Virus record (IMG/VR): IMGVR_UViG_3300025151_000135
Location: 1-35,310 of that record
DNA from: a virus
Length of the DNA: 35,310 nt
Direction: 5' to 3' (one strand)
The position numbers were made by a program, and so were the translations under genes. How positions within the stretch are numbered: the first letter of the stretch is position 1; the number at the start of each line of letters is the position of its first letter. This document shows positions 340 to 29,181 of this stretch, piece after piece. Under the pieces are notes generated by a model. It made no database searches and had not been told where the DNA came from. It worked only from the letters and a program-made list of their open reading frames with translations.

Positions 340-999
340 TTATTGATTGGCTGCAAAAAATGCCCTAGCGAATCCGCGAGGGGTCATTGATCGCATTTCT
401 TTTGTTTTTTCAGATTTCCCACCATAGAGGCGGTGCATTTTGGAACCGTCGACGGGATCAACCGGTTTTTTCTCCGGTTCCTGAAAATCGCCCCACAAAC
501 AAGTCCTTTTCGTATAGGCATCTTCGGCGGGGTCGTCGCACCATCCGCCAAATTCGCATGGTTGAAAGGTCATTTTATGGTGTCCGATATAATGCTTTAG
601 CCGGCCGACCGGATTTTCTAAGACCCAGAATTTCGGCTTATTGAGATAAACGAATCGCAAAGTAGCATCGACAATCGAAAGACCCTGGATCAACTGCTCG
701 TTTCCCTCCTCGGCCTTCTTTTTCCAATGTCTAGCACCGGCCGCACTAAAGGCGGTACACACCGGAGCAGACAACAGACCATAAACCGATCCGATATCCT
801 CTAAAGTCAAAAGGCGACAGTCGTCGCCATGCTTAAGATCAGTTTGAATGACGTTATAACCGGCGTCCCGATAGGGATCCGACCAGATCCCCGAATAATC
901 GCATAAAGACAAAATCGTTTTTGTGGAATTATCCGGTTTTTTAGGTTCCGGTTGATGATTGGCGGTTTTTGCCCTGTTTTTTCCTAGTTTAGTTTGCAT
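340..999 (-). CDS. C5-cytosine DNA methyltransferase-like protein
   Basis: The 219-aa product matches the plan of Dcm-type C5-methyltransferases. It has a SAM-binding motif I (LSLCDYSG, about residues 30-37), a motif IV segment with the catalytic-type Cys (SAPVCTAFS, Cys81), a motif VI-like VLENP (126-130), a motif VIII-like TKRTCLWG (163-170) and a C-terminal TPRGFARAFF resembling motif X. Two differences are visible. The usual PPC is PVC, and ENV is ENP, which leaves activity and product uncertain. The protein is short for the family, with little room for a target-recognition domain. The start has a textbook SD (AAGGAGATATACCC). It is the second gene of the leftward operon. The likely role is protection of phage cytosines. 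Confidence 0.7.
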   Translation of the reverse strand: MQTKLGKNRAKTANHQPEPKKPDNSTKTILSLCDYSGIWSDPYRDAGYNVIQTDLKHGDDCRLLTLEDIGSVYGLLSAPVCTAFSAAGARHWKKKAEEGNEQLIQGLSIVDATLRFVYLNKPKFWVLENPVGRLKHYIGHHKMTFQPCEFGGWCDDPAEDAYTKRTCLWGDFQEPEKKPVDPVDGSKMHRLYGGKSEKTKEMRSMTPRGFARAFFAANQ

Positions 1000-1032
1000 G
1001 GGTATATCTCCTTTTTATTTAATCTTTACCAT

Positions 1033-1058
1033 ATAGCCCACTAGCGAAAATGGGCTAT
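1033..1058. other. Intercistronic hairpin
   Basis: ATAGCCCA (1033-1040) pairs with TGGGCTAT (1051-1058) around a 10-nt loop. It lies between two leftward genes, upstream of the SD of the C5-methyltransferase-like gene. There is no U-run on either strand, so it is more likely an RNA processing or stability element than a terminator. Confidence 0.5.
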
Positions 1059-1071
1059 GGGGTGAGACTGA

Positions 1072-1614
1072 TCAAAGTAGTTGTTCTAATTGCTTTTTAT
1101 AAATTTGAATTAACGTTTGGTCGTTATCCAAAACAGCACAAGCAAGTTTTTTGCTCACGTTATCGATTGTAGTAGCGACATCAAAAGATTTATCAAAGTC
1201 TTCTAACTCGGAACCCTGCAAAAATTCCCGCTCATTTAAATATGAATTTTCAACCCAATCATTTAAAATCGAAAGTTTTTCACTAATGACCTTTTCCGTG
1301 GGACACGTCACGGTATTGGACACGATATCAGACAGGGAAAGATTTTCTATAATGGACAAGAATACGCTTTGACTGAATTCAGTGGTAAAGGTTGTGAAAT
1401 CAAAAGCATAATCCTCAAATTGCTCAAGATTCCACGCGTATGCTTCTAGGAATTCGTGAAAATCAGATTCTATCCAACATTTAAAGGTGCTAGTGACATC
1501 CGGCAAGATGATTGGGGAATCGTTTCCTTCTTCTTTTCTACATAATTCCTGATTCTCAACCCATGACTCGATTGCTTCAAAAATTACCCATTTATGTATG
1601 TCTACGCTTTGCAT
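1072..1614 (-). CDS. Acidic protein, 180 aa, unknown
   Basis: This is the first gene of the leftward operon, about 30 nt downstream of a good sigma70-like promoter, with SD AAGGAGATAAC before ATG 1614. The product is acidic, Ser- and Glu-rich, with many Trp/Phe residues in its first half (for example WVENQELC and FHEFLEAYAWNLEQFEDYAFDF). It appears soluble and helical, without signal peptide or membrane segment. No family is recognised. Being promoter-proximal, small and acidic is typical of phage host-takeover or anti-defence proteins, but that is inference only. Confidence 0.65.
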   Translation of the reverse strand: MQSVDIHKWVIFEAIESWVENQELCRKEEGNDSPIILPDVTSTFKCWIESDFHEFLEAYAWNLEQFEDYAFDFTTFTTEFSQSVFLSIIENLSLSDIVSNTVTCPTEKVISEKLSILNDWVENSYLNEREFLQGSELEDFDKSFDVATTIDNVSKKLACAVLDNDQTLIQIYKKQLEQLL

Positions 1615-1651
1615 TGTTATCTCCTTTATTTAACACATATCTAAACCTATT

Positions 1652-1679
1652 ATTATACCCTTAAAAGGGTGTATGTCTA
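1652..1679 (-). promoter_or_regulatory. Predicted sigma70 promoter of the leftward operon
   Basis: Read on the minus strand, the -35 is TAGACA (1679-1674), the spacer is 16 nt, and the -10 is a perfect TATAAT (1657-1652). The transcript would start near 1645, about 30 nt before the ATG at 1614. The operator-like ACCC-N6-GGGT fills the spacer. Confidence 0.7.
1657..1670. promoter_or_regulatory. Operator candidate, ACCC-N6-GGGT copy 1
   Basis: ACCCTTAAAAGGGT has 6-bp arms (ACCCTT/AAGGGT). It sits between the -35 and -10 of the leftward promoter, so a bound protein would exclude RNA polymerase. The same ACCC-N6-GGGT spacing recurs at 2145-2158 and 30193-30206, each time in a predicted promoter. 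Confidence 0.6.
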
Positions 1680-1707
1680 CTAATGTCAATAGCAAAACAT
1701 GAATTAT

Positions 1708-1721
1708 TTTCACGGGTGAAA
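1708..1721. repeat. Inverted repeat TTTCAC-GG-GTGAAA
   Basis: A 14-bp near-palindrome with perfect 6-bp arms. Its arms resemble those of the parS-like site at 2167-2182 (TTTCA/TGAAA), with two extra central bases. Confidence 0.45.
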
Positions 1722-1730
1722 TGGTCCGAT

Positions 1731-1752
1731 ATTCAATAGCCTGGCATTGAAT
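1731..1752. repeat. Inverted repeat ATTCAAT-N8-ATTGAAT
   Basis: Perfect 7-bp arms at 1731-1737 and 1746-1752 are separated by 8 nt. The right arm also begins a 12-bp palindrome, ATTGAATTCAAT (1746-1757). The function is unknown; it lies upstream of the leftward promoter. Confidence 0.45.
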
Positions 1753-1942
1753 TCAATTGTTGAGAAGGGGAAATTAGGGGGAAAAATCTCTCCTAACGTT
1801 TCTACGCTCAAACGGGGGGAGGAAAGGGGAAGGCGGGAAATCGCCTCGTTGCTAGGTCTACGTTGATTTTCGGGGGTGGAGATACTAGGGCAAGGGGTGA
1901 TCGTTTTATTTGCAGTAGCGAGCGTGTATGGCGGTGGGTTTT

Positions 1943-2019
1943 ATACCACAAATCTGTGGTATGTTTGCAACAAATAGGGGTGTGGTTTTTATGCCACAGG
2001 TGGTGGTTTTTCTACCACA
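1943..2019. repeat. Cluster of TGTGGT/ACCACA repeats
   Basis: ATACCACA (1943-1950) and TGTGGTAT (1955-1962) form a perfect 8-bp inverted repeat around AATC. It is followed by TGTGG (1981-1985) with CCACA (1994-1998), and GTGGT (2003-2007) with ACCAC (2014-2018). Six half-sites in 77 bp suggest cooperative protein binding or an iteron-like array. Confidence 0.55.
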
Positions 2020-2026
2020 GCCATGA

Positions 2027-2055
2027 TGCAATGCACAAAGCTAGTGTGCGGTGCA
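2027..2055. repeat. Imperfect hairpin with TGCA and GCACA/TGTGC arms
   Basis: Outer TGCA (2027-2030 and 2052-2055) encloses inner GCACA (2033-2037) and TGTGC (2045-2049). It lies directly downstream of the TGTGG cluster. No U-run follows. Confidence 0.4.
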
Positions 2056-2137
2056 ACAGAGCAATTTATTTCTAGACCCCCTCCCCCTGGGATTTTTAGG
2101 CGTAGGCTTGGAGCGACACAAAAAAAATTCTAAAACT

Positions 2138-2165
2138 TTGATTTACCCTTTCGTGGGTATACACT
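2138..2165 (+). promoter_or_regulatory. Predicted promoter of the late rightward operon
   Basis: TTGATT (2138-2143), a 16-nt spacer and TACACT (2160-2165). The -10 is weaker than in the leftward promoter, and an overlapping TATACA is an alternative. The transcript would start near 2172, inside the parS-like palindrome, about 25 nt before ATG 2197. Confidence 0.5.
2145..2158. promoter_or_regulatory. Operator candidate, ACCC-N6-GGGT copy 2
   Basis: ACCCTTTCGTGGGT lies in the spacer of the late promoter. Its geometry is close to that of copy 1 in the leftward promoter. Confidence 0.55.
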
Positions 2166-2166
2166 A

Positions 2167-2182
2167 TGTTTCATGTGAAACA
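2167..2182. promoter_or_regulatory. parS-like 16-bp palindrome
   Basis: TGTTTCATGTGAAACA differs at one central base from the widely conserved bacterial parS consensus TGTTTCACGTGAAACA (established knowledge). It lies between the late promoter -10 and the first SD. No ParA or ParB gene is in the genome, so a function would need a host ParB. Alternatively it is an ordinary operator. Confidence 0.5.
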
Positions 2183-2196
2183 CTGAGGGTTTGATT

Positions 2197-2601
2197 ATGG
2201 GTGATGTAATTAACTTGAGGGACGCATTTACAGAGTCAGAGCGTGTAACGCACACGTTACCGATTAACAAGGATTGGGAGGCTTTTATACCAAAGACTAA
2301 GTTATTGCAGATTAGTGCGGAGTTAATTTTGGGTGTAAAGGAGGTTCGTAACCGTTGTGAGGAAGATTTGCATGAGTATATGGGTTTGTATTATTTAGGG
2401 GAGGATGACAGGCCGTCAAGTACCCAGGTTGGTGTATTAGCTTTTGCGGATATTGCGAGGATGTATGTTTTAACGGAATTTTTCAAGACGAGTACGGATA
2501 TGATGGAAGAGTCGGATTTCAGGGATTTTGTATTATCGGATCCTAAGTTATGTCGTATTTATGAGTTATTAGTGGAGTATTTGAATGACGCAGATTGTTG
2601 A
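2197..2601 (+). CDS. Hypothetical protein, 134 aa, first gene of late operon
   Basis: ATG 2197 is preferred over the in-frame TTG at 2191 because GAGGG lies 7 nt upstream of it. The product begins MGDVINLRDAF. It is acidic and helical, with an NRCEEDLHEYMGLYY segment, and has no membrane segment. Codon choice is T/G-rich, as in the 67-aa gene that follows, whose start overlaps its end by 17 nt. No family is recognised. Its place directly behind the parS-like palindrome and the late promoter suggests an early-expressed or regulatory role, which is unproven. Confidence 0.6.
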   Translation: MGDVINLRDAFTESERVTHTLPINKDWEAFIPKTKLLQISAELILGVKEVRNRCEEDLHEYMGLYYLGEDDRPSSTQVGVLAFADIARMYVLTEFFKTSTDMMEESDFRDFVLSDPKLCRIYELLVEYLNDADC

Positions 2602-2788
2602 TCAGAAGAAATACCAGTCAAATCGCCGATATATGGCGTGGGCATCATTAGCTATGATATTAGTCACTTGTATAGCGGTACTTGCGTTTCCGAGCCGTTT
2701 TGAGCCAGCTGAGAGTATTTTAATGATGTTGTTAGGGTCATTAAGTGCAGTAGTGGCAGCGTATTTTGGATTTAGTCATAAGAAATGA
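2585..2788 (+). CDS. Small two-helix membrane protein, 67 aa (holin-like)
   Basis: After a charged N-terminus (residues 1-15) come two hydrophobic segments, about residues 17-35 (ASLAMILVTCIAVLAFPS) and 44-63 (ILMMLLGSLSAVVAAYFGF), and a short basic end, SHKK. Small size, two helices and a basic tail are typical of class II holins or membrane-anchored phage peptides. A clearer GTA-type holin is encoded at 4016-4390, so this may be a holin partner or antiholin. It overlaps both neighbours by a few bases. Confidence 0.6.
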   Translation: MTQIVDQKKYQSNRRYMAWASLAMILVTCIAVLAFPSRFEPAESILMMLLGSLSAVVAAYFGFSHKK

Positions 2789-3324
2789 AGGGCAAACAAT
2801 ATAACATTATTTATGCAGATCCACCGTGGAGCTACAAAGAAAATTGGGGCAACGGTGCAGTTCACCATCATTATGATTCCATGACCGCTAAAAGTATTGC
2901 GGAACTTTCAGTGCAAAACATTGCCGATGATAATTGTCACTTATATCTCTGGTACACCAATTCGTTTGTGAGAGAAGCCCATGCCGTTTGTGATGCTTGG
3001 GGCTTTACATATAAACAAACGCTAACGTGGGTTAAACAGTATTCAAACAAAAACATTGAAATGGGGTTGGGTTATTATTTTCGAGGAGCAACCGAACACG
3101 TTTTGTTTGCAGTAAAAGGCAAATTACCACGCTTGCGAAAAGATTTGAAAAACGTTATAGAGACAGAAGGTAGTGCAGTTTATGAAATTAACAGCCGTAA
3201 GCACAGCGAAAAACCGCAAGTATTCAGGGACATCATTGTGCAACATTCTGGCGATCTGCCAAGAATAGAGCTATTTGCAAGAAATAAAACAGAAGGTTGG
3301 GATGTTTGGGGAAATGAAGTTTAA
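2785..3324 (+). CDS. MT-A70 family adenine methyltransferase
   Basis: The product carries the MT-A70 hallmark DPPW at residues 12-15 (IIYADPPWSYKE), followed by LYLWYTNSF, a GYYFRGATEHVLFAVKG block typical of the family, and a C-terminal RIELFARNKTEGWDVWGNE. Phage members methylate adenine N6 in DNA. At 179 aa it is a minimal catalytic domain without a separate recognition domain. ATG 2785 overlaps the previous stop by 4 nt. Base use differs visibly from its T/G-rich neighbours: more A and C, CAC and AAA codons. This suggests separate acquisition. It probably marks phage adenines against restriction. Confidence 0.88.
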   Translation: MKGKQYNIIYADPPWSYKENWGNGAVHHHYDSMTAKSIAELSVQNIADDNCHLYLWYTNSFVREAHAVCDAWGFTYKQTLTWVKQYSNKNIEMGLGYYFRGATEHVLFAVKGKLPRLRKDLKNVIETEGSAVYEINSRKHSEKPQVFRDIIVQHSGDLPRIELFARNKTEGWDVWGNEV

Positions 3325-4016
3325 TGATTACAGATACAAAATATAGTCGCGAAAATCCTTCGGATTTTTATAAGCGGTGTTTGGAATATTATATTCAGAT
3401 GCACTCTACGACCAAGGCGTTTGATGGGCGTAGTATTAATAAGTTTGTATCTATTATAAAGACGTTGATTAGGAATCATCATTGTAAGACGTTATTGGAT
3501 TATGGGTCGGGTAAGGCAACGTTATATAGTGATAATTTTGGTTTATTGACTGATATTATTGATCACCCGTTACAGGAATATTGGGGTTTAGATAAGGTAT
3601 TTTTGTATGAACCGGCGATTAAGGGGTTAAGGGTATTACCGCCTAAACCGGTAGATTGTGTTATATGTACGGACGTTTTGGAGCATATTCCCCCACAGGA
3701 TTTACATTGGGTAATAGATGAGATGTGCAGTAAAGCGACTGAGTTTGTGTTTTTAAATATTTGCACATTTCCGGCTATGAAGGTGTTCCCAGATGGCACG
3801 AATGTTCATGTGAGTGTGTTTGATCAGAATGATTGGCTTACTTTTTTATCCAGAAAACGTAAAAATTTTGAAGATTTAGTAATTTATGTGTATTTTGACG
3901 TATTAGAGAATGATGAAACGATTAGTCGGGCGTATAAATTAGATAACTATACGCCGGAGCATATTGATTTTAAGATTAATCGTGTAGAGCCGTTATCTAT
4001 ACAGGGAGGCATATAA
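3324..4016 (+). CDS. Class I SAM-dependent methyltransferase
   Basis: The 230-aa product has a motif I-like LLDYGSGKATLYS (about residues 52-64), the central VDCVICTDVLEHIP (about 111-124) characteristic of Methyltransf_11/23-type enzymes, and a following helix-strand pattern (VFLNICTFPA). No DNA-specific DPPY/NPPY motif is seen. The substrate may be a small molecule, protein, glycan or base intermediate. It overlaps the MT-A70 stop by 1 nt and the holin-like start by 1 nt, so the genes are translationally coupled. Confidence 0.75.
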   Translation: MITDTKYSRENPSDFYKRCLEYYIQMHSTTKAFDGRSINKFVSIIKTLIRNHHCKTLLDYGSGKATLYSDNFGLLTDIIDHPLQEYWGLDKVFLYEPAIKGLRVLPPKPVDCVICTDVLEHIPPQDLHWVIDEMCSKATEFVFLNICTFPAMKVFPDGTNVHVSVFDQNDWLTFLSRKRKNFEDLVIYVYFDVLENDETISRAYKLDNYTPEHIDFKINRVEPLSIQGGI

Positions 4017-4390
4017 TGCTAGGTTTTTTAACACCGATTGCTAAAATTGCCGGTAGTTTGGTAGAGGGTCAGGTAGAGAAGTCTAAAGCTAAAGCAAAAG
4101 CTACGGTAGCCAGGGCAGAAGCGGAAGCGGAAGTGATGAAGGTTGCTGCTACGCATGAAGCCGGTTGGGAAAAGATAATGGCAGAAGCCTCGGCTGGTTC
4201 TTGGAAAGATGAGGCATGGACTATTTTATTTATCATTATTATAGGGGCATCATTTATTCCGTGGTGTAGACCCTATATTGCCGAAGGATTTCAAGCCTTA
4301 GAAACTGCACCGGATTGGTTTACTTATGCGATGTACGCTTCTATAGCGGCATCTTTTGGTATTCGTGGCATTAAAGGTATGAAGAAATGA
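4016..4390 (+). CDS. Holin, GTA three-TM type
   Basis: The 124-aa product has an amphipathic Ala/Lys/Glu-rich first half (residues 15-50) and a SWKDEAWTILFIIIIGASFIPWC membrane segment. This is followed by a second helix, AMYASIAASFGIRGIKGMKK. That matches the GTA_holin_3TM family found in alphaproteobacterial gene-transfer agents and many marine phages (family knowledge). It would release the M15 endolysin encoded at 32639-33007, although the two genes are far apart. A basic C-terminus fits a cytoplasmic tail. Confidence 0.72.
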   Translation: MLGFLTPIAKIAGSLVEGQVEKSKAKAKATVARAEAEAEVMKVAATHEAGWEKIMAEASAGSWKDEAWTILFIIIIGASFIPWCRPYIAEGFQALETAPDWFTYAMYASIAASFGIRGIKGMKK

Positions 4391-4638
4391 CTGTTAATTA
4401 TCGTGGAGAAACGTTTTCGGGCTATAACAAACCTAAACGGAGTCGAAAAGGCGGTAAAAAATTCGTAGTATTAGCTAAAGTAGGCGATCAGACTAAGATG
4501 ATACGGTTTGGCGATGCAAATATGACGATTAAGAAAGACCAACCTAAAGCTCGTAAATCGTTTAGAGCCAGACACAAATGCGATACTGATCCACCATCAA
4601 AACTTACAGCCAGATATTGGAGTTGTAAAAAGTGGTAA
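4387..4638 (+). CDS. Small basic conserved phage protein, 83 aa
   Basis: ATG 4387 overlaps the holin stop by 4 nt. The product is Lys/Arg-rich and ends with a KSFRARHKCDTDPPSK...ARYWSCKKW pattern in which two Cys, one His and several aromatic residues recur. Proteins with this tail are common in podoviruses near terminase genes, with no agreed function as far as I know. High basicity suggests a DNA- or capsid-associated role. Confidence 0.6.
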   Translation: MTVNYRGETFSGYNKPKRSRKGGKKFVVLAKVGDQTKMIRFGDANMTIKKDQPKARKSFRARHKCDTDPPSKLTARYWSCKKW

Positions 4639-4766
4639 GTTACGATAAACCGATTACCCAATCGTCAATTATCCCACCAGAACGAAAACCGTTGGTAAAA
4701 CCACAAGAACCGGTTAAAGAAGTACCACCACCTAAATCTACTAATCATGTAGATAAAACAGTGTAA
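4632..4766 (+). CDS. Proline-rich small protein, 44 aa
   Basis: The start is GTG 4632, overlapping the previous stop, with GGAG about 10 nt upstream. The product has many Pro and Lys (IIPPERKPLVKPQEP, then VKEVPPPK). Its stop TAA overlaps an ATG that opens a 9-codon frame (4766-4795), which is probably not functional. Coding is supported by tight packing and a clean frame, but non-ATG initiation leaves doubt. Confidence 0.4.
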   Translation: MVSYDKPITQSSIIPPERKPLVKPQEPVKEVPPPKSTNHVDKTV

Positions 4767-4804
4767 TGGCTAGAAAAGTCCCAAAAACTAAATAGGAGAT
4801 TATT

Positions 4805-4945
4805 ATGCCCGTTATGAAATCAAGCAAAGGATATAAATACGGTACTAGCGGTAAAACCTATAAAGGAAAAGGGGCAAAAAAGAAAGCAACTAAACAGGGA
4901 TTAGCGATTCAAGCAAGTAAACGGAGAAAACGTTTAAAAGGCTAA
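4805..4945 (+). CDS. Very basic small protein, 46 aa
   Basis: ATG 4805 has a good SD (TAGGAGATTATT). Over a third of residues are Lys or Arg (for example SKGYKYGTSGKTYKGKG and ASKRRKRLKG), with repeated Gly-Tyr-Lys units. It is likely a nucleic-acid-binding or virion-packaged peptide. It lies directly upstream of the terminase gene, with only 2 nt between stop and start. A role as a packaging accessory is inferred from position alone. Confidence 0.6.
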   Translation: MPVMKSSKGYKYGTSGKTYKGKGAKKKATKQGLAIQASKRRKRLKG

Positions 4946-4947
4946 TA

Positions 4948-6210
4948 ATGCAAATAAAAATACCGTATACCCCTAGAAAATTACAAAGAAACGCACATAG
5001 TCGTAAAGAACGTTTTGCTTTATTGGTATGTCACCGTCGATTTGGAAAGACAGTATTTGCTATTAATGAAGTCATTAAATGTGCGGCAATGTGCCGTCTT
5101 AAAGAACCGCGTTTTGCGTATATTAGCCCTTTATATAGGCAAAGTAAGGCAGTAGCGTGGGATATGGTCAAACATTACACCCGTCCTATACCAGAAGTAA
5201 AATACAATGAAGCGGAATTGCGTTGTGATTTACCTAATAACGCACGATTAACGTTATATGGCGGTGATAATCCAGATTCTTTGCGTGGGTTATATTTAGA
5301 TGGCGTAATTATGGACGAATATGCCCAGATGAGTGCAAGATTGTTTCCAGAAGTAGTACGTCCTGCATTAGCTGACCGTAAAGGGTGGGCAGTATTTATT
5401 GGGACACCGCGAGGTCATAATAGTTTCTTTGATTTATATCAGAGTGTAAAAGACGATCCGGATTGGTATGTAAAAATACATAAAGCGTCAGAAACCGGTT
5501 ATTTGGAAGACGAAGAACTAGTAGCAGCCCGTAAACAAATGTCAGAAGACCAGTATTTGCAAGAGTTTGAATGTTCTTGGACAGCTGCAATACAGGGTGC
5601 ATATTACGGTAAATTGTTAGAAGCAGCAGAAAAAGAAAGTAGAATAGGCAAAATACAGTTTGATCCGTCGTTTTCTGTAGAAACATGGTGGGATTTAGGT
5701 ATAGGGGATAGTACAGCAATATGGTTTGTGCAAAGAAATGGTGGAGAATTGCGTGTTATTGACTACTATGAAGCATCAGGAGAAGGATTAAATCATTATG
5801 TCAATGTGTTACAGGAGAAAGCTGCAACGGGAACATGGACATATAGTGACCATATTTTTCCGCATGATGTACGCCAAAGAAGTCTAGATACAGGGCGATC
5901 TAGAGTGGAAGTGCTATACAATTTAGGCATAGAGGCTAAGATAGTAAAGATGCACAAAGTGGAAGATGGGATAGAAACAGTGCGTAGAACGTTGAATAAT
6001 TGTTGGTTTGATGACCTTCGATGCAGAAGGGGACTAGACGCATTACGTCAATATAGGGCAGAATACGACGAAACGAGAAGAACATTCCGGTTAAAACCGG
6101 TACATGATTGGGCATCTCATGCAGCAGATGCGTTTCGATACGGATGTATGTATTCACCGATCATGAATACATGGGACACATTAAATTATAGTAATTCAGG
6201 AATAGTTTGA
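4948..6210 (+). CDS. terL: Terminase large subunit
   Basis: The 420-aa packaging motor has a deviant Walker A (CHRRFGKT, residues 28-35), a Walker B with catalytic Glu (GVIMDEYA, Asp123-Glu124) and a motif III-like VFIGTPRGHNSF. The C-terminal RNase H-like nuclease shows WWDLGIGDSTAIW (about 247-259) and HDWASHAADAFRYG (about 386-399). It pumps DNA into the prohead and cuts the concatemer. Length and motifs fit the Terminase_6 group of short-tailed phages. The following small gene may be its partner. Confidence 0.93.
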   Translation: MQIKIPYTPRKLQRNAHSRKERFALLVCHRRFGKTVFAINEVIKCAAMCRLKEPRFAYISPLYRQSKAVAWDMVKHYTRPIPEVKYNEAELRCDLPNNARLTLYGGDNPDSLRGLYLDGVIMDEYAQMSARLFPEVVRPALADRKGWAVFIGTPRGHNSFFDLYQSVKDDPDWYVKIHKASETGYLEDEELVAARKQMSEDQYLQEFECSWTAAIQGAYYGKLLEAAEKESRIGKIQFDPSFSVETWWDLGIGDSTAIWFVQRNGGELRVIDYYEASGEGLNHYVNVLQEKAATGTWTYSDHIFPHDVRQRSLDTGRSRVEVLYNLGIEAKIVKMHKVEDGIETVRRTLNNCWFDDLRCRRGLDALRQYRAEYDETRRTFRLKPVHDWASHAADAFRYGCMYSPIMNTWDTLNYSNSGIV

Positions 6211-6211
6211 T

Positions 6212-6487
6212 ATGGGTGCACCACTAGGAAATAAAAACGCTTCAAAAGAAAATCGCCAATTCCGTAATTCATTAAATCGTAATTTAAAAAGGTTTAAGGC
6301 TGAAGGCGTACCCGATGGAGATGCTTTGGGTAAAATTACACAAAAATTGATTCAATGTGCGATAAACGGAGAAGCCTGGGCAATAAAAGAAGTTGCAGAC
6401 AGGTTAGAAGGTAAAGCACCACAAGCGATTGGTATAGCGGAAGTACCAGATGCAATAAGTTTAACTTGGGATCAAGGTGATGAATAA
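6212..6487 (+). CDS. Possible terminase small subunit-like protein, 91 aa
   Basis: The product begins MGAPLGNKNASKENRQ, a pattern common in phage DUF5681/small-terminase-like proteins. It continues with a helical body and ends AIKEVADRLEGKAPQA, typical of the same group. Position between large terminase and portal fits. A DNA-binding N-terminus is suggested by basic residues 8-32. An experimentally supported terminase function for this family is not known to me. Confidence 0.6.
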   Translation: MGAPLGNKNASKENRQFRNSLNRNLKRFKAEGVPDGDALGKITQKLIQCAINGEAWAIKEVADRLEGKAPQAIGIAEVPDAISLTWDQGDE

Positions 6488-8730
6488 TGGCTACGGCAAT
6501 AAGTGACGAGCAGATTGCATCAATTTGCCGGTCAGAAATAGATAGTGCTTCAGGTTATGCTGGAGGAGAAATATCTAATGAACGGGCAGAAGCATTAAAT
6601 TATTATTATGGGGAACCATACGGCGATGAAGTAGAAGGCCGTAGTCAGGTAGTAACCCGTGAGGTAATGGAAACGGTAGAATGGATTTTGCCGTCTTTAG
6701 CAAGAATATTTACCGATGCAGAAAATTTAGTAGAGTTTACTCCTACAAATCCAGATGACGTAAGTCAGGCAAAATTAGAGACTAAAGTATCCAATTATGT
6801 GTATTGGAAACAAAATCGTGGTTTTTATAATACTTATACGTTTTTAAAAGATGCGTTATTAAGTAAAACCGGTATTTTGAAGATTTATTGGGATGATTCC
6901 GATAAAGAAAGTAAAGAAAAATACGAAAATTTAACGCCAATGCAAGTAGAAGCTATGCAGATGGATCCTAATACTGAGCGAGAAGTATTAGAACTGGAAG
7001 AATTAGAAAATGGCTTAGTTAATGTTACTTTTAAAACTATTGAGCGAAACGGCCAAATTAGAATAGAACCGGTTCCTCCAGAGGAATTTGGTATTGCTCG
7101 ATATGCTCGTACACCTTATACGGAAGATGTTAATTTTTGTTATCACCGTACACAAAAAACATTTAGTGAATTAGTCCAAATGGGTTACAGCCCTGATGTT
7201 ATACGGACGTTGCCATTTGATGATGATGTCCAAACAGAGGAAGAACTTGCTAGACGTAATATGTCTGATGAGCAAGAACCATATGATTATGTTTCTGAAG
7301 AATCTATGCGTATGTATTGGATTTCAGAGTGTTACATTAATGTAGACCGTGATGGCGATGATATTGCAGAATTATTAAGGGTAACGTTAGCTGGTGGCCA
7401 TTATACTGCGTCGTCAGCCCGATTATTAGGCATAGAAGAAGTAGATATTATGCCTTTTGCAACGTGTAGTCCTATTTTAATGCCACATAAATTTTATGGT
7501 TTATCTATTGCGGATTTGACAATGGATTTACAAAGAATTAAATCCGTATTGTTACGCCAAATGCTAGATAACACTTATTTAGCGAATAATACGCGAACTG
7601 CCGTTAATGATACCCATGTTAATATGGACGATTTATTAACGTCTAGGCCAGGGGGCGTAGTAAGATACAAAGGTGAAGGTGCTGCGTCGCAATATATTAC
7701 GCCGATTCCCCATAATGCGTTGCCAAACCAAGCATTTAATATGATGGAATATTTAGATGATACGCGTAAACAACGTACTGGTGTGGGTGATGAGGTAGCA
7801 GGGTTAGATAAAAATTCATTATCGAGTATTAACCCTGGGGTTGCAGCTATGGCATATGATGCGGCTCGTATGAAAATAGAGTTAATTGCTCGTATTTTAG
7901 CGGAAGTAGGGTTTAAATCAGTATTTAAAATTATTCATAAATTATTATTAACCCACCAAGATATACCTATGATGGTTAATGTCGGTAATCAATTTGCAAT
8001 GGTTAATCCGGCAGATTGGAAAGATAGAGAAAATACCAGTGTAACAGTAGGTACGGGTACGGTTTCTAAAGAAAAGAAAATGATAGCGTTAGAAACTATT
8101 ATGAATAAACAACAGGAAATAGTAAAAAATGGAGGTTTAGGCACTATTGTTATGCCTCATCAGTTATATCAAACTGTAGCAGATATGGCAGATGCGTTTG
8201 GTTTACCCTCAGACCAATACTTTACTGACCCCAGAACCGTACCGCCAAAACCACCACAACCAGACGTTCAACAGGAATTAGCGATCGCACATTCCAAAGC
8301 ATTGGCAATGGACGCACAATCAAAATTATTACAAGTACAGGTAACAGCAGCTAAAAACGAAGCGGAATCATCGTTAAAATTAAGGGAGCAGGAGTTAACT
8401 GCCCAATCTGATCGCATCAAACACAATATTGAAATAGAAAAAATGCGATTAGAGCAAATGCAAGCCGAAACACAATCGGAAGAAAAAATAGCATCTTTAG
8501 GTATACAAATAGATAAAAACGAGACAGAAGAACGTATTAAAGAAATGCAATTAGCATTGCAAGAAAACACAGAAACACAAAAACGAGAAGTTGAAATATT
8601 TAAAGCTAAAATTGATAGTTTAACAAAATTGTTGCAAACCGAAGCAAAAATTAGCGATAATCAGCAAAACCGTGATATGAATATGTTAAAAGATCAATTA
8701 CAAAAAGATGTAAGTGATGGAGAAACATGA
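6487..8730 (+). CDS. Portal protein (P22-like head-tail connector)
   Basis: The 747-aa product resembles the large podoviral portal family. It has an N-terminal EGRSQVVTREVMETVEWILPSL segment, in which RSxVVxRxV is a hallmark of P22-type portals, and the central GLDKNSLSSINPGVAAM is also typical. Residues about 590-740 form a long Gln/Glu/Lys-rich coiled coil, equivalent to the P22 barrel. Twelve copies would form the DNA channel at one capsid vertex and bind terminase during packaging. ATG 6487 overlaps the previous stop by 1 nt and has AAGGTG upstream. Confidence 0.9.
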   Translation: MATAISDEQIASICRSEIDSASGYAGGEISNERAEALNYYYGEPYGDEVEGRSQVVTREVMETVEWILPSLARIFTDAENLVEFTPTNPDDVSQAKLETKVSNYVYWKQNRGFYNTYTFLKDALLSKTGILKIYWDDSDKESKEKYENLTPMQVEAMQMDPNTEREVLELEELENGLVNVTFKTIERNGQIRIEPVPPEEFGIARYARTPYTEDVNFCYHRTQKTFSELVQMGYSPDVIRTLPFDDDVQTEEELARRNMSDEQEPYDYVSEESMRMYWISECYINVDRDGDDIAELLRVTLAGGHYTASSARLLGIEEVDIMPFATCSPILMPHKFYGLSIADLTMDLQRIKSVLLRQMLDNTYLANNTRTAVNDTHVNMDDLLTSRPGGVVRYKGEGAASQYITPIPHNALPNQAFNMMEYLDDTRKQRTGVGDEVAGLDKNSLSSINPGVAAMAYDAARMKIELIARILAEVGFKSVFKIIHKLLLTHQDIPMMVNVGNQFAMVNPADWKDRENTSVTVGTGTVSKEKKMIALETIMNKQQEIVKNGGLGTIVMPHQLYQTVADMADAFGLPSDQYFTDPRTVPPKPPQPDVQQELAIAHSKALAMDAQSKLLQVQVTAAKNEAESSLKLREQELTAQSDRIKHNIEIEKMRLEQMQAETQSEEKIASLGIQIDKNETEERIKEMQLALQENTETQKREVEIFKAKIDSLTKLLQTEAKISDNQQNRDMNMLKDQLQKDVSDGET

Positions 8731-10048: not shown

Positions 10049-10053
10049 GTAAA

Positions 10054-11025: not shown

Positions 11026-11047
11026 CCTCCCAAAGTGTAGTAATAAT

Positions 11048-11076
11048 GGGGCTTGGTCAAACAAGCCCCTATTTTT
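11048..11076 (+). terminator. Rho-independent terminator or attenuator after the capsid gene
   Basis: GGGGCTTG (11048-11055) pairs with CAAGCCCC (11062-11069) around GTCAAA and is followed by TATTTTT. It lies in a 65-bp gap inside the late operon, so it probably reduces rather than stops read-through, raising capsid mRNA relative to downstream genes. Confidence 0.8.
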
Positions 11077-11090
11077 AAGAGGATTAAGTT

Positions 11091-12947: not shown

Positions 12948-12949
12948 TT

Positions 12950-18030: not shown

Positions 18031-18058
18031 TAATTAGTAACGAGATTAGAGGTTAGTC

Positions 18059-20848: not shown

Positions 20849-20849
20849 T

Positions 20850-22709: not shown

Positions 22710-22728
22710 TTACTAAAAGGTAAAATAA

Positions 22729-24840
22729 ATGAGTAGTTTAAGTCAAAGCACTTTAGATCGAATTAAACAGCGTAAAAATAACCGGCAAACTACCGGAACT
22801 AGTTCTGATATTGCTACAGGATTCCGAGGGACATTGGAAAGCATACCGTTAGCGTTAGAAGATATTGTTAGTGATGCACGATTGTTTGGGTATCGTTTAG
22901 GTGGTGGCAGAATGAATCCTTTTGAAGGATTACAAGATCTTTTTGAAACACGCCAACGCGAAGATTTACAAGAATTTTTTGAAGGCCGAAAAGATTTAGA
23001 AAGAAGAATTGCAGCACACCAACAAAAATATGCACCCAATCAACAAACTGGTGGAGGTTTGGTAGGTAATGTGTTGGGTTATGGATTATTAGGAGGCGGA
23101 TTAGGTTTAGGAAGAAATTTATTGCTTCGAGGGGCAGGACGACCAACTACCGTAACAGGGGCTACTGTTCCAGGGTTAGCAGCCACAGAAGCAGCATTAA
23201 TACCTACATTAGGAGATGACCCATTTAGTTTGGGTAATAATAGAATGGGTAATATGTTATTAGCAGCCGGTTTAGGAACCGCAGCAGATAGAGTGTTAAG
23301 TGGTATAGGCAATAGGTTAACTACAGGAAGTGACCGTAGAGCAGCATTAGCAACAGACCCTAATTTTCTTTCTACAAGAACTAGACAACCATTACCACGG
23401 TCGCCACAACAGGACGTAACAGAGGCTGCTCAAATTGCTCAGAACGCAGGATATATTTTAGACCCCAAAGCAATACGGTCGGATTTACCTATTAGAACAG
23501 CGACAGCGAGATATTTTCAAAGTCCTAGATTATTACAATCTGCGATGGGCAATCATAACCAAGATGTAACTAATATTTTAGCTAGAAAAGTATTAGGAGC
23601 GGATGAAAACACATCTATAGAAAGTGCGATTACTAGACGAATAACTGAACTACAAAACAAATACGAAGGGTTTAGAAATATTGGAGAACAAGCCAAAGTA
23701 TTTAAACGACGATTAGTAGATGATTTATATGGAATTAAACTAGGCGAATCTAGGCCAGATATTTTAAGTCGGTTTTCGGGTGCAACAAAAGAAGCTAGGG
23801 AACAACAAGCTAGAAAATTTAATCAATTTGCCGATTCATTAACAAAAATAAAAATTCAACCAGACAATATAGACCGATTAAAAACCTTATTAGAACAACG
23901 TATAAAATTAGAAAAAACGCTTGGTGGGCTAGGTACAGAACATAGAAATGTTTTAAACCAGGCTACCAGTATTTTAGAAAAAGGAGAATTAGAACCCGAA
24001 TTGTGGATGGACGCAATTAAGGTGTTACGAAATACTAAAAGCAAATTGTTTAAAAGTGGGGATGCTGATACAGGACGTATTGTTGGTGAAATTAGTGATA
24101 TTTTAGAAGATAGTGCAGAAAAACATTTTGTAGAATTAGATGAATTAATTGGTTCTCGCACTATTAATGATTTTTTACCAGATAATGTAACTGTTAATCC
24201 ACAAGGTCAATTATTAGATGCAAGTGGTGAAATTATTCCAGATTTACAAATTCCTAAATTTGGTAAAACGGTACAAGAGTTTAAAGATGCCAGAAAACAA
24301 TATTCGCAAGCGGAAGCAATAAGAGAAGCTACTGTCGGAGATATGGTAGATGCTGAAAAAATATATAACATTGGTAAAACTAAACCGTTAACCGATGAAT
24401 TAGAAACTATTGCTAAAACTTACGAGTATTTTGGAACTGGTCAAGGTACTAGTCCAAGAAATGTAATGCAGTTTGGTAAAACAGATGTTCCGCGAACTGA
24501 TGCACAATTAGGGACGTATACGTTGGCACAATTAGCGGGGTCATTAGCAAGTCCAGTTTTAGATAGAATATTGCCAAAACCAACCCATGCGTCGGCGATA
24601 TTATTAGGAGGGTTGGAAAGTCAGCCACGAATACGGTCACTGTTAATGGATCCAGCAGGATTTGGACAAAAAAACGTATTGCCTCCATCTTTAGGGTTAT
24701 TAGATAGAACCTTGCAAGCCCCGAATGTAAAAAGAGCGTTAAATGCTCCACTAGTTCAAAGTGGTTCACGACAATTACTAGCACCGGCATTAGGGGCTGG
24801 AACCTCAACATTTGCTGTTGATCAAACAGATTTATTATAA
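22729..24840 (+). CDS. Large probable ejection protein, 703 aa
   Basis: The N-terminus is polar and helical (1-100, with LQDLFETRQREDLQEFFEGRK in parts). A Gly/Leu-rich hydrophobic stretch follows (about 108-200, GLVGNVLGYGLLGGGLGLGRN and later MLLAAGLGTAADRVL) that could insert into a membrane. The rest is helical. This matches podoviral ejection proteins that build a conduit through the cell envelope. ATG 22729 has AAGG upstream. No lytic transglycosylase motif is evident. Confidence 0.6.
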   Translation: MSSLSQSTLDRIKQRKNNRQTTGTSSDIATGFRGTLESIPLALEDIVSDARLFGYRLGGGRMNPFEGLQDLFETRQREDLQEFFEGRKDLERRIAAHQQKYAPNQQTGGGLVGNVLGYGLLGGGLGLGRNLLLRGAGRPTTVTGATVPGLAATEAALIPTLGDDPFSLGNNRMGNMLLAAGLGTAADRVLSGIGNRLTTGSDRRAALATDPNFLSTRTRQPLPRSPQQDVTEAAQIAQNAGYILDPKAIRSDLPIRTATARYFQSPRLLQSAMGNHNQDVTNILARKVLGADENTSIESAITRRITELQNKYEGFRNIGEQAKVFKRRLVDDLYGIKLGESRPDILSRFSGATKEAREQQARKFNQFADSLTKIKIQPDNIDRLKTLLEQRIKLEKTLGGLGTEHRNVLNQATSILEKGELEPELWMDAIKVLRNTKSKLFKSGDADTGRIVGEISDILEDSAEKHFVELDELIGSRTINDFLPDNVTVNPQGQLLDASGEIIPDLQIPKFGKTVQEFKDARKQYSQAEAIREATVGDMVDAEKIYNIGKTKPLTDELETIAKTYEYFGTGQGTSPRNVMQFGKTDVPRTDAQLGTYTLAQLAGSLASPVLDRILPKPTHASAILLGGLESQPRIRSLLMDPAGFGQKNVLPPSLGLLDRTLQAPNVKRALNAPLVQSGSRQLLAPALGAGTSTFAVDQTDLL

Positions 24841-25816: not shown

Positions 25817-26161
25817 CTAAGATTTACGTTGATTAGCATTAATAGACCGCCAAACATCAACAGTCATAATAAGCCGTTCTCTCTCTAACATTAATTTCAT
25901 TCGTTTAAATTCAGCCTCAACGAGCTTGTCTTTAGCCTGGGTGTATACATCGCTTTGTAACGCTACACGTTCCTTTTCGGCGATGGTTCCGGTGTCAGGT
26001 TGCCCTTTAGCTTTCGCTATAGGAAGACCCAATTTAGCGGAAGTGTAATCAGCACAAGAACGAGCATATTCCGCATCGGAATCTGGTAGCCGTTCCAAAA
26101 CTTCATCTATATCTTTTTCATTTGGTAAATATTTAAACCCCACAACATCCCTCACATTCAT
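25817..26161 (-). CDS. Hypothetical helical protein, 114 aa
   Basis: The product starts MNVRDVVGFKYLPNEKDIDE and is helical in the second half (LVEAEFKRMKLMLERERLIM), with an internal GLPIAKAKGQPDTGTIAEKERVAL segment. There is no SD at its ATG, which lies inside the 32-codon frame upstream, so it probably depends on coupling. It sits between QueE and NinG genes. The function is unknown. Confidence 0.55.
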   Translation of the reverse strand: MNVRDVVGFKYLPNEKDIDEVLERLPDSDAEYARSCADYTSAKLGLPIAKAKGQPDTGTIAEKERVALQSDVYTQAKDKLVEAEFKRMKLMLERERLIMTVDVWRSINANQRKS

Positions 26162-26231: not shown

Positions 26232-26244
26232 AAAAATAGTCCTT

Positions 26245-26871
26245 TTACATAATTCCTACAACTTTATGCGTTTGAATAGACAAACGCCATTGTGGGTTGT
26301 TTAAACAATATTGTACGGTTATTTTGGCATTGTCGTAAAAATGGTCATTATCTTTAGGTTGCAAATAAAAGTGGTTAAAAGAATAATTAGCAAAAACATC
26401 TGGTGATATAGTCTGTTGTGGGTAAACTAATTTTAATTCATTGCCAGAGGTAACTTTTACGTTAGCTGTTTTAGGAGAAACAGTAACCCAATCAACATCA
26501 GCAACGATGGGATTCGACCCGTTGGTTTCTATTGCAGTAAAATAATTACATTGTTTTAAGTCATTAACTAATTCACTAGTAATTTGTAAAGTGGGTTCAC
26601 CTCCCGTAAAAACCACAAATTTGTCACTATGGTCTACGCCCCATACGTCCTCTATTTTTTTAACTAATTCGGTAGCACTATATTCACCACCGTTTAAACC
26701 ATCGGTTCCGACAAAATCGGTATCACAAAAAGAACAAGTAGCGGTATCTCTATCAAGTTCGCGACCACTCCAAAAATTACAGCCCGTGAATCTAACAAAC
26801 ACGGCTCGTTTGCCAGCATTAAAACCTTCTCCTTGTAAAGTCAAAAACAGTTCTTTAATCTTAAACACCAT
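26245..26871 (-). CDS. queE: 7-carboxy-7-deazaguanine synthase, QueE
   Basis: This radical-SAM enzyme converts carboxy-tetrahydropterin to 7-carboxy-7-deazaguanine (CDG), a step towards preQ0. The 208-aa product has the QueE cluster motif CX14CX2C (Cys31, Cys46, Cys49), preceded by LTLQGEGFNAGKRAVFVR. FTGGEPTLQ follows, a SAM contact, and the C-terminus is QTHKVVGIM as in canonical QueE. ATG 26871 is preferred over the upstream in-frame TTG. It overlaps the DpdA gene by 11 nt without its own SD, so both are made together. QueD, FolE and QueC are absent, so precursors must come from the host. Confidence 0.92.
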   Translation of the reverse strand: MVFKIKELFLTLQGEGFNAGKRAVFVRFTGCNFWSGRELDRDTATCSFCDTDFVGTDGLNGGEYSATELVKKIEDVWGVDHSDKFVVFTGGEPTLQITSELVNDLKQCNYFTAIETNGSNPIVADVDWVTVSPKTANVKVTSGNELKLVYPQQTISPDVFANYSFNHFYLQPKDNDHFYDNAKITVQYCLNNPQWRLSIQTHKVVGIM

Positions 26872-27616
26872 GACAATCAAACAATTCTAAATTTAATTGA
26901 TTACCGGATGTACCAGACCACACACTAGCTTTGGCATGATTTTCCAAGCGATCCATAATGATAGCTGCTCTAGCAACAGGCGAATAAGGTGCATAAGCTC
27001 CTTTCCACACATTATCACGACAAATATTTCGAGCAAGGTGAGTACTGTCGGCTGACGCTAAAGGTAAATGGGCTAGTACGCTAGGATCTAACATCCGAAG
27101 CCCATGCAATTTAACAAAAGGTCGGCCACTAGAATCACAAATATAATTTAAAATTTCTTTGATGCGATTCCACCATGTTTTATTAGCTATTGTTGAAAAT
27201 TGACCACTACTTCCTAATGCGATGCGGGGATAGTTATCTATCAAACGTTTCAATCTATCGAAACTTTCATGCAAATGAAACACGGGAACGCCAAAATGTG
27301 CAAAAGGCCATTCATCCAACAAATCATCGTTATCTTTCTCGTTGCCATCAATAACGTCTGGGATGCAAGCCCATTCGCATCCAGGGTGTTTCAACCAATG
27401 GTCAACCCAATCGTAAAACTTTGACCAATCAGTAACAGGTTCACCTTGTCGCCACGCCGAAAAAGCACCATTGTCCAAAACAAAAGTACGACAGACTTCA
27501 GCTAACACTTTAATTTGGTCTGGACGGTGAAACGACACCATAGCATCGCGGTTGGCCATTGCTTTCACAACATTAAGTATTTCGCCAGAAAGGGGTGTTC
27601 CATGATAACAAATCAT
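26861..27616 (-). CDS. dpdA: DpdA-like DNA guanine transglycosylase
   Basis: The 251-aa product matches phage DpdA proteins, TGT-fold enzymes that replace guanine in DNA with a 7-deazaguanine. Visible landmarks are CYHGTPLSGE (3-12), FHRPDQIKVL (29-38), VLDNGAFSAWR (46-56) with an Asp at 48, WACIPDVIDGN (82-92) with Asp87, IALGSSGQFS (132-141), FVKLHGLRML (167-176) and LASADSTHLARN (187-198). It is shorter than bacterial TGTs, as usual for phage DpdA, and no zinc-binding Cys cluster is evident. It overlaps queE, giving a compact modification cassette. Which base is inserted (preQ0, CDG or a derivative) cannot be read from the sequence. Confidence 0.88.
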   Translation of the reverse strand: MICYHGTPLSGEILNVVKAMANRDAMVSFHRPDQIKVLAEVCRTFVLDNGAFSAWRQGEPVTDWSKFYDWVDHWLKHPGCEWACIPDVIDGNEKDNDDLLDEWPFAHFGVPVFHLHESFDRLKRLIDNYPRIALGSSGQFSTIANKTWWNRIKEILNYICDSSGRPFVKLHGLRMLDPSVLAHLPLASADSTHLARNICRDNVWKGAYAPYSPVARAAIIMDRLENHAKASVWSGTSGNQLNLELFDCHGV

Positions 27617-27912
27617 TGTTTATTCTCGTTTTGTTTATGTGTTTTCTTCCATTTTTCGTATTTGGTGGATACCGTATGTGTTCCCTGTAGGTTTTCATCT
27701 CCGAATACGGGAGAGAATCTAGGTAAGTTTTTGACGATTTTGTTGGCGTTTATTTGGGCTTCTTCTGCGGTTCTGTAGACTCCCAGATTCTTTTTGGTGT
27801 TGCGATCCCAAAGCGTATACCGCCATGTTTTGTTCCCTATACTGCTTTTGCTAATAGTAAATTTACCATTATTACTCGCCATCCAGTATTTACCTTTAAT
27901 TGTCCATTTCAT
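27613..27912 (-). CDS. Small basic protein, 99 aa, unknown
   Basis: The product begins MKWTIKGKYWMASNNGKFTIS. It carries a strand-rich, single-domain fold with WRYTLWDRNTKKNLGVYRTAEEA, a helix (QINANKIVKNLP), then a Lys-rich tail. This pattern occurs in small phage proteins of replication regions, without known role to me. Its ATG overlaps the P-like gene stop by 4 nt and its stop overlaps the dpdA start by 4 nt, so it is firmly in the operon. Confidence 0.6.
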   Translation of the reverse strand: MKWTIKGKYWMASNNGKFTISKSSIGNKTWRYTLWDRNTKKNLGVYRTAEEAQINANKIVKNLPRFSPVFGDENLQGTHTVSTKYEKWKKTHKQNENKQ

Positions 27913-28328
27913 AGGTCGTCTTTAGAACAACCTAGTAAGATTGCTCGTAACTCCTTGACCTTTTCAATATTCTCCTTCAGTTCTTCCTCGCTCGGTTCGT
28001 GAGTTAATTGGGGGACATATTCTTGTCTCGATTGCCACCCTTCACCGGCGAAACACATTTTGCGAAATTTAGGTAATGACGGTGGCCAATCCTCCCCACT
28101 TTCTACCACATTCCGAATACCACGTTTTATGTGAACTGGTTTCAAATCATGTAATCCCACTATCCAACTGGTACAAGGATCCTCGCCGTATTGAGACACG
28201 AATTTACTACCGTATAACTCAGTCAAAGTTACCCAAAGCGTAGATATTGTCTCTGTGGGCAGCCTTGGCTTTTTCTCGTACTCGCTCGACGGCTGATTGT
28301 TTTTTATTAGATTCTGTATTCGCTCCAT
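27909..28328 (-). CDS. Replication protein P-like helicase loader
   Basis: The start ATG 28328 has AAGGAAG 9 nt upstream and is preferred to an upstream in-frame ATG at 28379. The 139-aa product carries LWVTLTELYGSKFVSQYG ... WIVGLHDLKPVHIKRGIRNVVESGEDWPPSLPKFRKMC (read in parts). That resembles the lambda P family, whose members deliver host DnaB helicase to the origin. The call relies on the WPPSLPKF pattern and gene order. It overlaps the upstream gene by 110 nt out of frame. Confidence 0.65.
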   Translation of the reverse strand: MERIQNLIKNNQPSSEYEKKPRLPTETISTLWVTLTELYGSKFVSQYGEDPCTSWIVGLHDLKPVHIKRGIRNVVESGEDWPPSLPKFRKMCFAGEGWQSRQEYVPQLTHEPSEEELKENIEKVKELRAILLGCSKDDL

Positions 28329-28557
28329 ATCGGCAATCTTCCTTTTTATAAACTGTGAGCCATTCCGACTCCATGGCACTTTCGAGAAGCAACACTGGAT
28401 CGTATCCTTCCAAGCGAAACCGTTCTAGTTTATTCAAAAACATACGTTGGCTTCTTATTGTAAACTTTTTGGTCTTTTCTTCTCGCCGGTAGGCAACAAA
28501 ATCCTCCCACAATGCCACCGGCAAATAATCGGGTGGATCTAATATCTCGTTTTTCAT
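28219..28557 (-). CDS. Possible replication initiator-associated protein, 112 aa
   Basis: ATG 28557 has a strong SD (AAGGAGATAAC). The product begins MKNEILDPPDYLPVALWEDF. It has the pattern W-x3-hRR...K...(N)KLERFRLEGYDPVLLLESAMESEWLTVY, seen in C-terminal domains of phage replication proteins (O/DnaD-type). It lacks an evident DNA-binding N-terminus. With the P-like gene it suggests a host-helicase-dependent replication strategy, consistent with no phage polymerase. Its last 110 nt overlap the P-like gene. Confidence 0.6.
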   Translation of the reverse strand: MKNEILDPPDYLPVALWEDFVAYRREEKTKKFTIRSQRMFLNKLERFRLEGYDPVLLLESAMESEWLTVYKKEDCRYGANTESNKKQSAVERVREKAKAAHRDNIYALGNFD

Positions 28558-28566
28558 GTTATCTCC

Positions 28567-29181
28567 TTAAAACATTTGTCGTTGCACTGGTACACAACCC
28601 CCAGAATCATATCTTTGGGTTTTACCTTTTGGATAAGGTTCAATGGGGTAATTTAAACTATCAAGCAATTCACGTTTTTGTCTTTTATTACCACAAAAAT
28701 AGACGTATCTATGTTTCCTTGGGCGTTCTACCTGCGGCTGGCCAGATGGCTGATGACGATTGTGAACATTGGTAAGATAACAATTTTCTGGATCAGTTCG
28801 TTTAGCACTCAATCCTGTGTAGATAAAATTTGTTGCTTGATAGATATACCCCACATGATGCTGTGCGGTATCAGCATAGCTCACCACAATTTTAGGCGTT
28901 GGTAACAATTTTAACGAATGAGCTATCAAATAACTGGCTTCATTTTTTTTGTTATTTTCTAAACAAAGTCGGTTCAATTCTAAAACGTCATGCCGATATT
29001 TTTCCCCACAAATTCCTTCACACAAAGATGGAGAAGCTGGCAACCCATAAGTAATCACGCCTGTTAAATCATTTTCAATAAAAAGTCCAAATGAAAAACT
29101 AATAGACGGTAAGCGTTTGGCATAATGTTTAAACTTAAGCCAATCATATGTTTCCCAATTTTTAATAGATTTTACTTTCAA
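28567..29181 (-). CDS. mom: Mom-like DNA adenine modification protein
   Basis: Mu Mom, a GNAT-fold enzyme, converts adenine in DNA to a carbamoylmethyl derivative that blocks many restriction enzymes (established). The 204-aa product carries the family pattern. It has FGLFIENDLTGVITYGLPAS (31-50), the VLELNRLCL block (66-74), ASYLIAHSLKLLP, IVVSYADTAQHHVGYIYQATNF (98-119), and IYTGLSAKRTDPEN after it. The start codon is TTG 29181, with GGAGG 5 nt upstream; no ATG is available in frame. A short frame overlaps the start, and a structured leader precedes it, recalling the post-transcriptional control of Mu mom. Cofactor and exact product are unproven here. Confidence 0.82.
   Translation of the reverse strand: MKVKSIKNWETYDWLKFKHYAKRLPSISFSFGLFIENDLTGVITYGLPASPSLCEGICGEKYRHDVLELNRLCLENNKKNEASYLIAHSLKLLPTPKIVVSYADTAQHHVGYIYQATNFIYTGLSAKRTDPENCYLTNVHNRHQPSGQPQVERPRKHRYVYFCGNKRQKRELLDSLNYPIEPYPKGKTQRYDSGGCVPVQRQMF

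Follow-up and report, generated by a model that had tools for sequence, protein, structure and literature searches.

Guanine-, adenine- and putative cytosine-type modification genes of a 35-kb phage genome vary slot by slot among its close relatives

Among the phage systems that modify guanine, the DpdA systems of phages 9g, CAjan and Rosebush (PMC6884629) have a tRNA-guanine transglycosylase (TGT)-type enzyme carrying the DpdA histidine, with QueE alongside. Section 8 of that paper distinguishes phages that have DpdA and the pathway, phages in which QueC is the one gene missing beside DpdA (Bipper), phages with no more than DpdA, and phages with pathway genes but no DpdA. Mom-type enzymes and a deazaguanine system are found in one phage in the jumbo phage vB_PaeM_PA5oct, which has five momylating enzymes (PMC7824862). 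Here we analyse the IMG/VR virus record IMGVR_UViG_3300025151_000135, taken whole (35310 bases; "the window"), which contains a short DpdA-type gene, a QueE gene, a Mom-family gene, an MT-A70 gene and a gene resembling C5-cytosine methyltransferases ("cytosine-type"). Compared with these systems, the window resembles 9g, CAjan and Rosebush in its TGT-type enzyme and QueE, although its DpdA-type protein has 251 amino acids (aa) and that of 9g 317 aa, and DpdA with QueE alone is not one of the groups in section 8 of PMC6884629. Its Mom can be aligned in sequence with that of phage Mu (PDB 8bv8) and appears to be a single-gene exchangeable cassette; like PA5oct it combines genes of the two kinds, but in 35 kb, with one Mom, and with siblings that have no DpdA.

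Eight contigs (S1, S2, S3 and S7-S11, the siblings) are colinear with the window, in blocks mostly 92-99% identical in DNA and a few at 75-90%, and the gaps in these alignments coincide with the modification genes (Table 1). We tabulated 46 window genes in the eight siblings, scoring a gene as present when 60% of it was matched at 60% identity and as absent when less than 10% of it was matched at that identity; S4 and S5, which have only Mom in common with the window, and S6 and four G contigs, which are too diverged, were left out of this table. Five of five modification genes are absent somewhere among the siblings, compared to six of the 41 others (descriptive Fisher p 3.4e-4), and with QueE and DpdA merged the comparison is four of four with six of 41 (p 0.0014). 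The six non-modification genes are orf180, orf123, orf619, orf703, orf99b and gp88.

Table 1. Positions of the modification genes, associated genes and variable sites in the window
Feature	Position	Strand	Family match or remark
C5-cytosine-methyltransferase-like protein, 219 aa	340..999	-	phrog_757; variable site A
Protein, 180 aa (orf180)	1072..1614	-	site A; absent in 3/3 siblings covering site
MT-A70 family adenine-N6 methyltransferase	2785..3324	+	PF05063; single-gene cassette, variable site B
Generic class-I S-adenosylmethionine (SAM) methyltransferase, 230 aa	3324..4016	+	phrog_24759; present in 3/3 siblings covering site
Variable site C	25818..25821	.	no insert in window; Dam-type methylase in some siblings
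QueE, 7-carboxy-7-deazaguanine synthase, Cx14CxxC type	26245..26880	-	TIGR04508, PDB 4njg; variable site D
Short DpdA-type guanine transglycosylase, 251 aa	26861..27616	-	phrog_887; with QueE occupies variable site D
Mom-family adenine modification enzyme, 204 aa	28567..29181	-	PF25680; variable site E

DpdA and QueE are both absent in all six siblings that cover their site, and MT-A70 is absent, with a clean junction, in the three that cover its own (S1, S2 and S7). Mom is present in S1 and absent in four of five siblings (S7, S8, S10 and S11); S9 is also without it, an absence not counted in the table because the contig ends nearby, and in S9, S10 and S11 the Mom site holds 244 bases instead. 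S2 has the complete cytosine-type gene (93%); from S1 it is absent, and S7 has a partial gene whose match is confined to the C-terminal 101 residues. In this last sibling (L076, approximately 12891-13214) the gene is without its catalytic core, and what is left of it, the C-terminal part, is joined in frame with the opening residues of the neighbouring 105-aa gene that is whole in S2 (L003:1534-1851).

Other genes stand in some of the slots. At slot C a 153-aa Dam-type adenine methylase is found in S1, S7, S8 and S10 (the S1 protein matches PF05869 at 1.7e-32) and none in S9 and S11. At slot D a gene resembling phosphoadenosine phosphosulfate (PAPS) reductase and SspD is present in S1, S9, S10 and S11, whereas S7 and S8 have no more than a few bases there; the S1 copy (L042:4892-5698) and the S11 copy (L080) are 73% identical and represent two alleles, while the flanking genes are 91-100% identical to those of the window. 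The S1 copy matches the PADLOC SspD model (3.7e-13) and phrog_424 (phosphoadenosine phosphosulfate reductase), with a Pfam PAPS_reduct match below the cut-off; a phmmer search of the sibling protein against PDB returned nothing at E 1, and the likeness to SspD of the SspABCD phosphorothioation system is taken as a lead only. The S1 Dam-type gene (L042:6011-6472) matches part of phrog_33262, a family of 495 positions that is named phosphoadenosine phosphosulfate reductase, which hints that PAPS-reductase-like and Dam domains may be fused in some phages.

S1, which also has an N6/N4 methylase (PF01555) beside Mom, carries the set Mom, Dam-type, N6/N4 methylase and SspD-like, and the window the set Mom, MT-A70, DpdA-QueE and cytosine-type. 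Since the siblings carry other combinations, the set of the window is a snapshot. The original prediction had spoken of one layered set, which the siblings do not support.

Single genes of the window are also found, nearly identical, in phages that are otherwise dissimilar. MT-A70 has 89-91% DNA identity in contigs L258-L261, over essentially the gene length alone, and Mom has 87-89% in L043 and L044. These contigs have no other DNA match to the window at E 1e-5, save 40 bases in L260 and L261 and 96 bases in L044 (the latter a 76% match to the 180-aa gene), and a search of the same contigs with 20 window and three sibling proteins added only two matches, to Mom in L260 (61%) and to the Dam-type protein in L044 (63%). 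Mom recurs together with adenine-type methylases, namely Dam-type and N6/N4 in S1, Dam-type in L044 and MT-A70 in L260, so that the two kinds do not exclude each other; between Mom and MT-A70 the original prediction had raised the possibility of competition or ordering. The MT-A70 junction is an AATGA start/stop overlap, and the edges of the Mom slot carry ATCTCC/ACCTCC, i.e. GGAGAT/GGAGGT on the coding strand, repeats that resemble ribosome-binding sites. The ratios of nonsynonymous to synonymous substitution rates (dN/dS) are low: Mom has 0.07-0.09, MT-A70 0.04 and the cytosine-type gene 0.13, which suggests that these three genes are functional and under purifying selection.

The adenine-type genes pass the curated cut-offs of their families. 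The MT-A70 protein scores 99.1 bits against PF05063 (cut-off 23.9), has the DPPW motif as YADPPWSY, and matches the PADLOC type II methyltransferase model at 1.8e-57; METTL3 is among its matches. The Mom protein scores 122.6 bits against PF25680 (cut-off 27.1) and aligns over residues 2-185 of 204 with PDB 8bv8, an entry named "Methylcarbamoylase mom" (1.7e-13).

The DpdA-type protein matches phrog_887 (E 4e-65), and Pfam and NCBIfam gave no family of DpdA name. All 38 aligned family members share D48, D87, H171 and D190, and the three aspartates may correspond to the catalytic ones of TGT; in a cruder count each of the four motifs is kept in 155-160 of 163 scanned loci, and a looser K/R-x-H motif in 158 of the 163. 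When a profile of 13 members was aligned with phage 9g DpdA by hhalign (E 1.2e-9), H171 of the window fell on H196 of 9g DpdA (position counted by hand), a histidine which is absent from DpdA2 according to section 8 of PMC6884629. An AlphaFold model (pLDDT, the predicted local distance difference test, 87.4) was compared with known structures by VIA-align, a re-ranking of Foldseek's list. The top row was 9ntn_A, "Cap10-CdnD complex containing NDG modification" (Z 15.6), and the other 49 of the 50 listed rows were tRNA-guanine transglycosylases (Z 14.2-15.4, 223-231 residues aligned, root-mean-square deviation 3.6-4.4); as modelled, the protein has a TGT-type fold. This short family (about 250 aa) is widespread, with tblastn matches in 175 of 50,697 phage records; pattern scans gave 98 loci for bacterial and archaeal genomes and, for viral contigs, at least 575.

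The QueE protein scores 291.5 bits against TIGR04508 (queE_Cx14CxxC; curated equivalog cut-off 240) and aligns over residues 4-210 of 211 with PDB 4njg (E 2.7e-65), radical-SAM cysteines included. Its gene overlaps dpdA by 20 bases and is the sole precursor gene found in the window, in which QueC, PTPS/QueD, FolE and the PF02592 transporter family were all sought and none matched; host precursors must therefore be used if DpdA acts on DNA. Among 164 DpdA loci, 14 of the 84 viral ones have a QueE gene no further than approximately 1.3 kb from DpdA, and none of the 80 in bacterial genomes does; this share is not a population estimate since only the best 80 of the 98 bacterial and archaeal loci and the best 80 of the at least 575 viral loci were retained; L039/L040 and L183/L184 among the 14 are possible near-duplicates. 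In the window and these 14 records, mostly fragments, which were searched for QueC and PTPS (FolE and PF02592 being sought in the window only), QueC was found in two, PTPS in two and neither in 12 of the 15.

At least three kinds of QueE stand beside DpdA, as judged by eye from the cysteine motifs of 12 sequences: Cx14CxxC (window, L037, L179, L201 and L223), CPLRCxYC (L038-L040) and C(S/N)VGC(S/P)WC (L178, L183, L191 and L230, in which the end of queE overlaps dpdA by 4 bases), with the QueE of L226 unlike all three. Within every one of these three kinds there are records in which neither QueC nor PTPS is detectable. The pairing of DpdA with QueE seems, from these motifs, to have arisen more than once. 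It has also been placed differently: contig L038, with a capsid protein 81% identical to that of the window, has its DpdA-QueE pair between homologues of genes that are adjacent at 11601-13672 in the window, i.e., at another genomic place. In Flyfo siphovirus Tbat1_6 (L095:2516-2992) an annotated putative vitamin uptake transporter, possibly a precursor transporter, adjoins a DpdA-type gene.

The cytosine-type protein matches phrog_757 (E 5.3e-52). All 11 proteins in an alignment share C81, E128-N129-P130 and R203-S204, C81 being the motif IV cysteine and E128-N129 the motif VI EN of C5-methyltransferases; a profile of three cytosine-type proteins found nothing in PDB at E 1. The further SAM methyltransferase (230 aa) that the original prediction had listed among the DNA modification genes matches phrog_24759 ("methyltransferase"), with only weak generic Pfam matches below the cut-off and a poor AlphaFold model (pLDDT 56.5). 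No DNA methyltransferase model matched it in Pfam, NCBIfam or PADLOC (the last two at E 0.01), and it is therefore not counted as DNA modification.

We consider it likely, from the comparison of these sequences, that the modification genes are separately acquired anti-restriction cassettes of one or two genes each, exchanged at fixed slots. A cassette would consist of a single gene, or of dpdA and queE together, with conserved genes on either side of its fixed slot, and the siblings would gain, lose or replace cassettes singly, probably by recombination at short repeats around start and stop codons and ribosome-binding sites. Mom would acylate and MT-A70 methylate the N6 of adenine, DpdA would replace guanine by a 7-deazaguanine base whose supply QueE would boost, and the phrog_757 protein would act on cytosine, so that each lineage would show its hosts a different modification pattern. 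Varied restriction pressure, as the original prediction had proposed, may well lie behind the gene set. A fixed programme, whose enzymes would work jointly or one after another on a single genome, would fit the presence of all these genes in one probably complete 35-kb genome and the recurrence of Mom with adenine-type methylases in S1, L044 and L260; the parts of such a programme would be passed on together, yet DpdA-QueE is absent in 6/6 siblings, MT-A70 in 3/3 and Mom in 4/5, and the cytosine-type gene is whole in 1/3, which makes it improbable. Traffic of genes drifting in and out without selection for protection is to be expected to leave clean single-gene junctions and a remnant such as the cytosine-type gene of S7, reduced to its C-terminal part and fused to another reading frame; we hold this equally improbable in view of the low dN/dS of Mom (0.07-0.09), MT-A70 (0.04) and the cytosine-type gene (0.13) and of the modification genes varying more often than other genes.

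Some of the enzymes might instead target RNA or protein: MT-A70 would have RNA as its substrate, the TGT-fold protein a tRNA or a protein, and QueE would boost queuosine in host tRNA. METTL3 among the MT-A70 matches points that way, as do the structural matches of the DpdA model, Cap10-CdnD 9ntn chain A first and then the 49 tRNA-guanine transglycosylases, and section 8 of PMC6884629 suggests tRNA queuosine as the use of pathway genes in phages without DpdA. The alignment of the profile with 9g DpdA, placing H171 on the H196 that DpdA2 is without, the overlap of queE with dpdA, and the match of MT-A70 to the PADLOC type II methyltransferase model (1.8e-57) argue against it, and we give it little credence, if slightly more than the two preceding explanations. 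Separately exchanged cassettes thus remain the reading we prefer, and the following points weigh against it. The siblings are not independent samples, so that the Fisher values are only descriptive, and they are uncultivated IMG/VR contigs, seven of the eight at 8.5-16.6 kb; L260 and L261 are possibly near-duplicates. For orf619 and orf703 "absent" probably stands for a divergent allele, S1 having a 706-aa ORF (open reading frame) where the window has orf703. Exchange is not limited to modification genes, since tail and virion genes vary among the siblings too: the putative tail or virion genes at 18059-24840 (552, 123, 619 and 703 aa) are strongly variable among otherwise near-identical siblings, as would be expected of host-recognition genes. 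No dN/dS estimate was obtainable for DpdA or QueE. Plain Foldseek of the DpdA model gave nothing below E 0.001, with archaeosine TGT 1j2b at rank 2 (E 4.8e-3) and mixed with other barrels. The coexistence of guanine-, adenine- and cytosine-aimed genes in one 35-kb phage, claimed in the original prediction, is plausible by family matches for DpdA/QueE, Mom and MT-A70 and is less sure for cytosine, the protein falling below the cut-offs for DNA C5-methylases (PF00145, 16.1 vs 22 bits; TIGR00675, 16.5 vs 100.65).

A narrower proposal, which we regard as rather unlikely, is that the lineage keeps a few fixed slots, slot D holding alternately a guanine change (DpdA-QueE), a sulfur-type change (SspD-like) or nothing. 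In this proposal dpdA-queE would be a minimal, repeatedly invented cassette, in which QueE suffices because DpdA takes 7-carboxy-7-deazaguanine directly or because QueE is the limiting step in a queuosine-making host. If cassettes are exchanged separately, the chemistry of DNA would not be fixed within a phage lineage, and near-identical natural phages would differ in modified bases cassette by cassette, in parallel with the differences of bacteria in defence islands; such phages would offer a natural experiment on which modification beats which host defence. The dpdA-queE pair (approximately 1.4 kb) would then be a compact two-gene candidate for writing a 7-deazaguanine base into DNA.

The original prediction had held small phages with such a layered set to be few, and the combination does look uncommon: Mom was found in none of the 164 DpdA loci, and three of 17 Mom loci (L042 from S1, L044 and L052) had any other family searched, within flanks of at most 10 kb, by which whole-genome co-occurrence is underestimated. 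The literature searched, judged by titles and abstract openings, held no description of this gene set or its exchange, which is no proof of absence. Proteus phage Inception was considered as a precedent for Mom with deazaguanine and rejected, its annotation having Mom and a DNA methyltransferase and naming no deazaguanine gene (its unnamed genes were unsearched). In L022 and L023, whose terminase is 49% identical, a 32% Mom-like match is found (at about 4351).

The record has a 12-base terminal repeat and the alignment of S2 spans both of its ends, so the window is probably a complete circular assembly and a whole phage genome. The six ORFs named in the original prediction are all present and open where it had placed them, and the modification genes do lie, as it had stated, in three of the four strand blocks if the record is treated as circular. 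Megablast of positions 1-20000 against phages returned zero matches. The 40 best matches of the terminase, at 44-49% identity, include Pelagibacter, Methylophilales, Rhodoferax and Ochrobactrum phages, and no host was found; HTVC010P-type pelagiphages and Methylophilales phage Venkman stand at 46-49%. The cytosine-type gene has a homologue at 48% in phage HTVC106P, and MT-A70 one at 43% in Venkman, which is annotated with one DNA methyltransferase and many unnamed genes.

The 180-aa protein encoded beside the cytosine-type gene matched no Pfam or PHROG family. At window position 4792-4797, S1 and S2 have approximately 376 extra bases, with ORFs of 75 and 85 aa, that are not in the window. The protein encoded at 34454-35128, whose gene is absent in S7, has weak GP88 and DUF5131 matches below the cut-off; it has 48% relatives in L022 and L023 and, by eye, a similar-looking ORF in L044.

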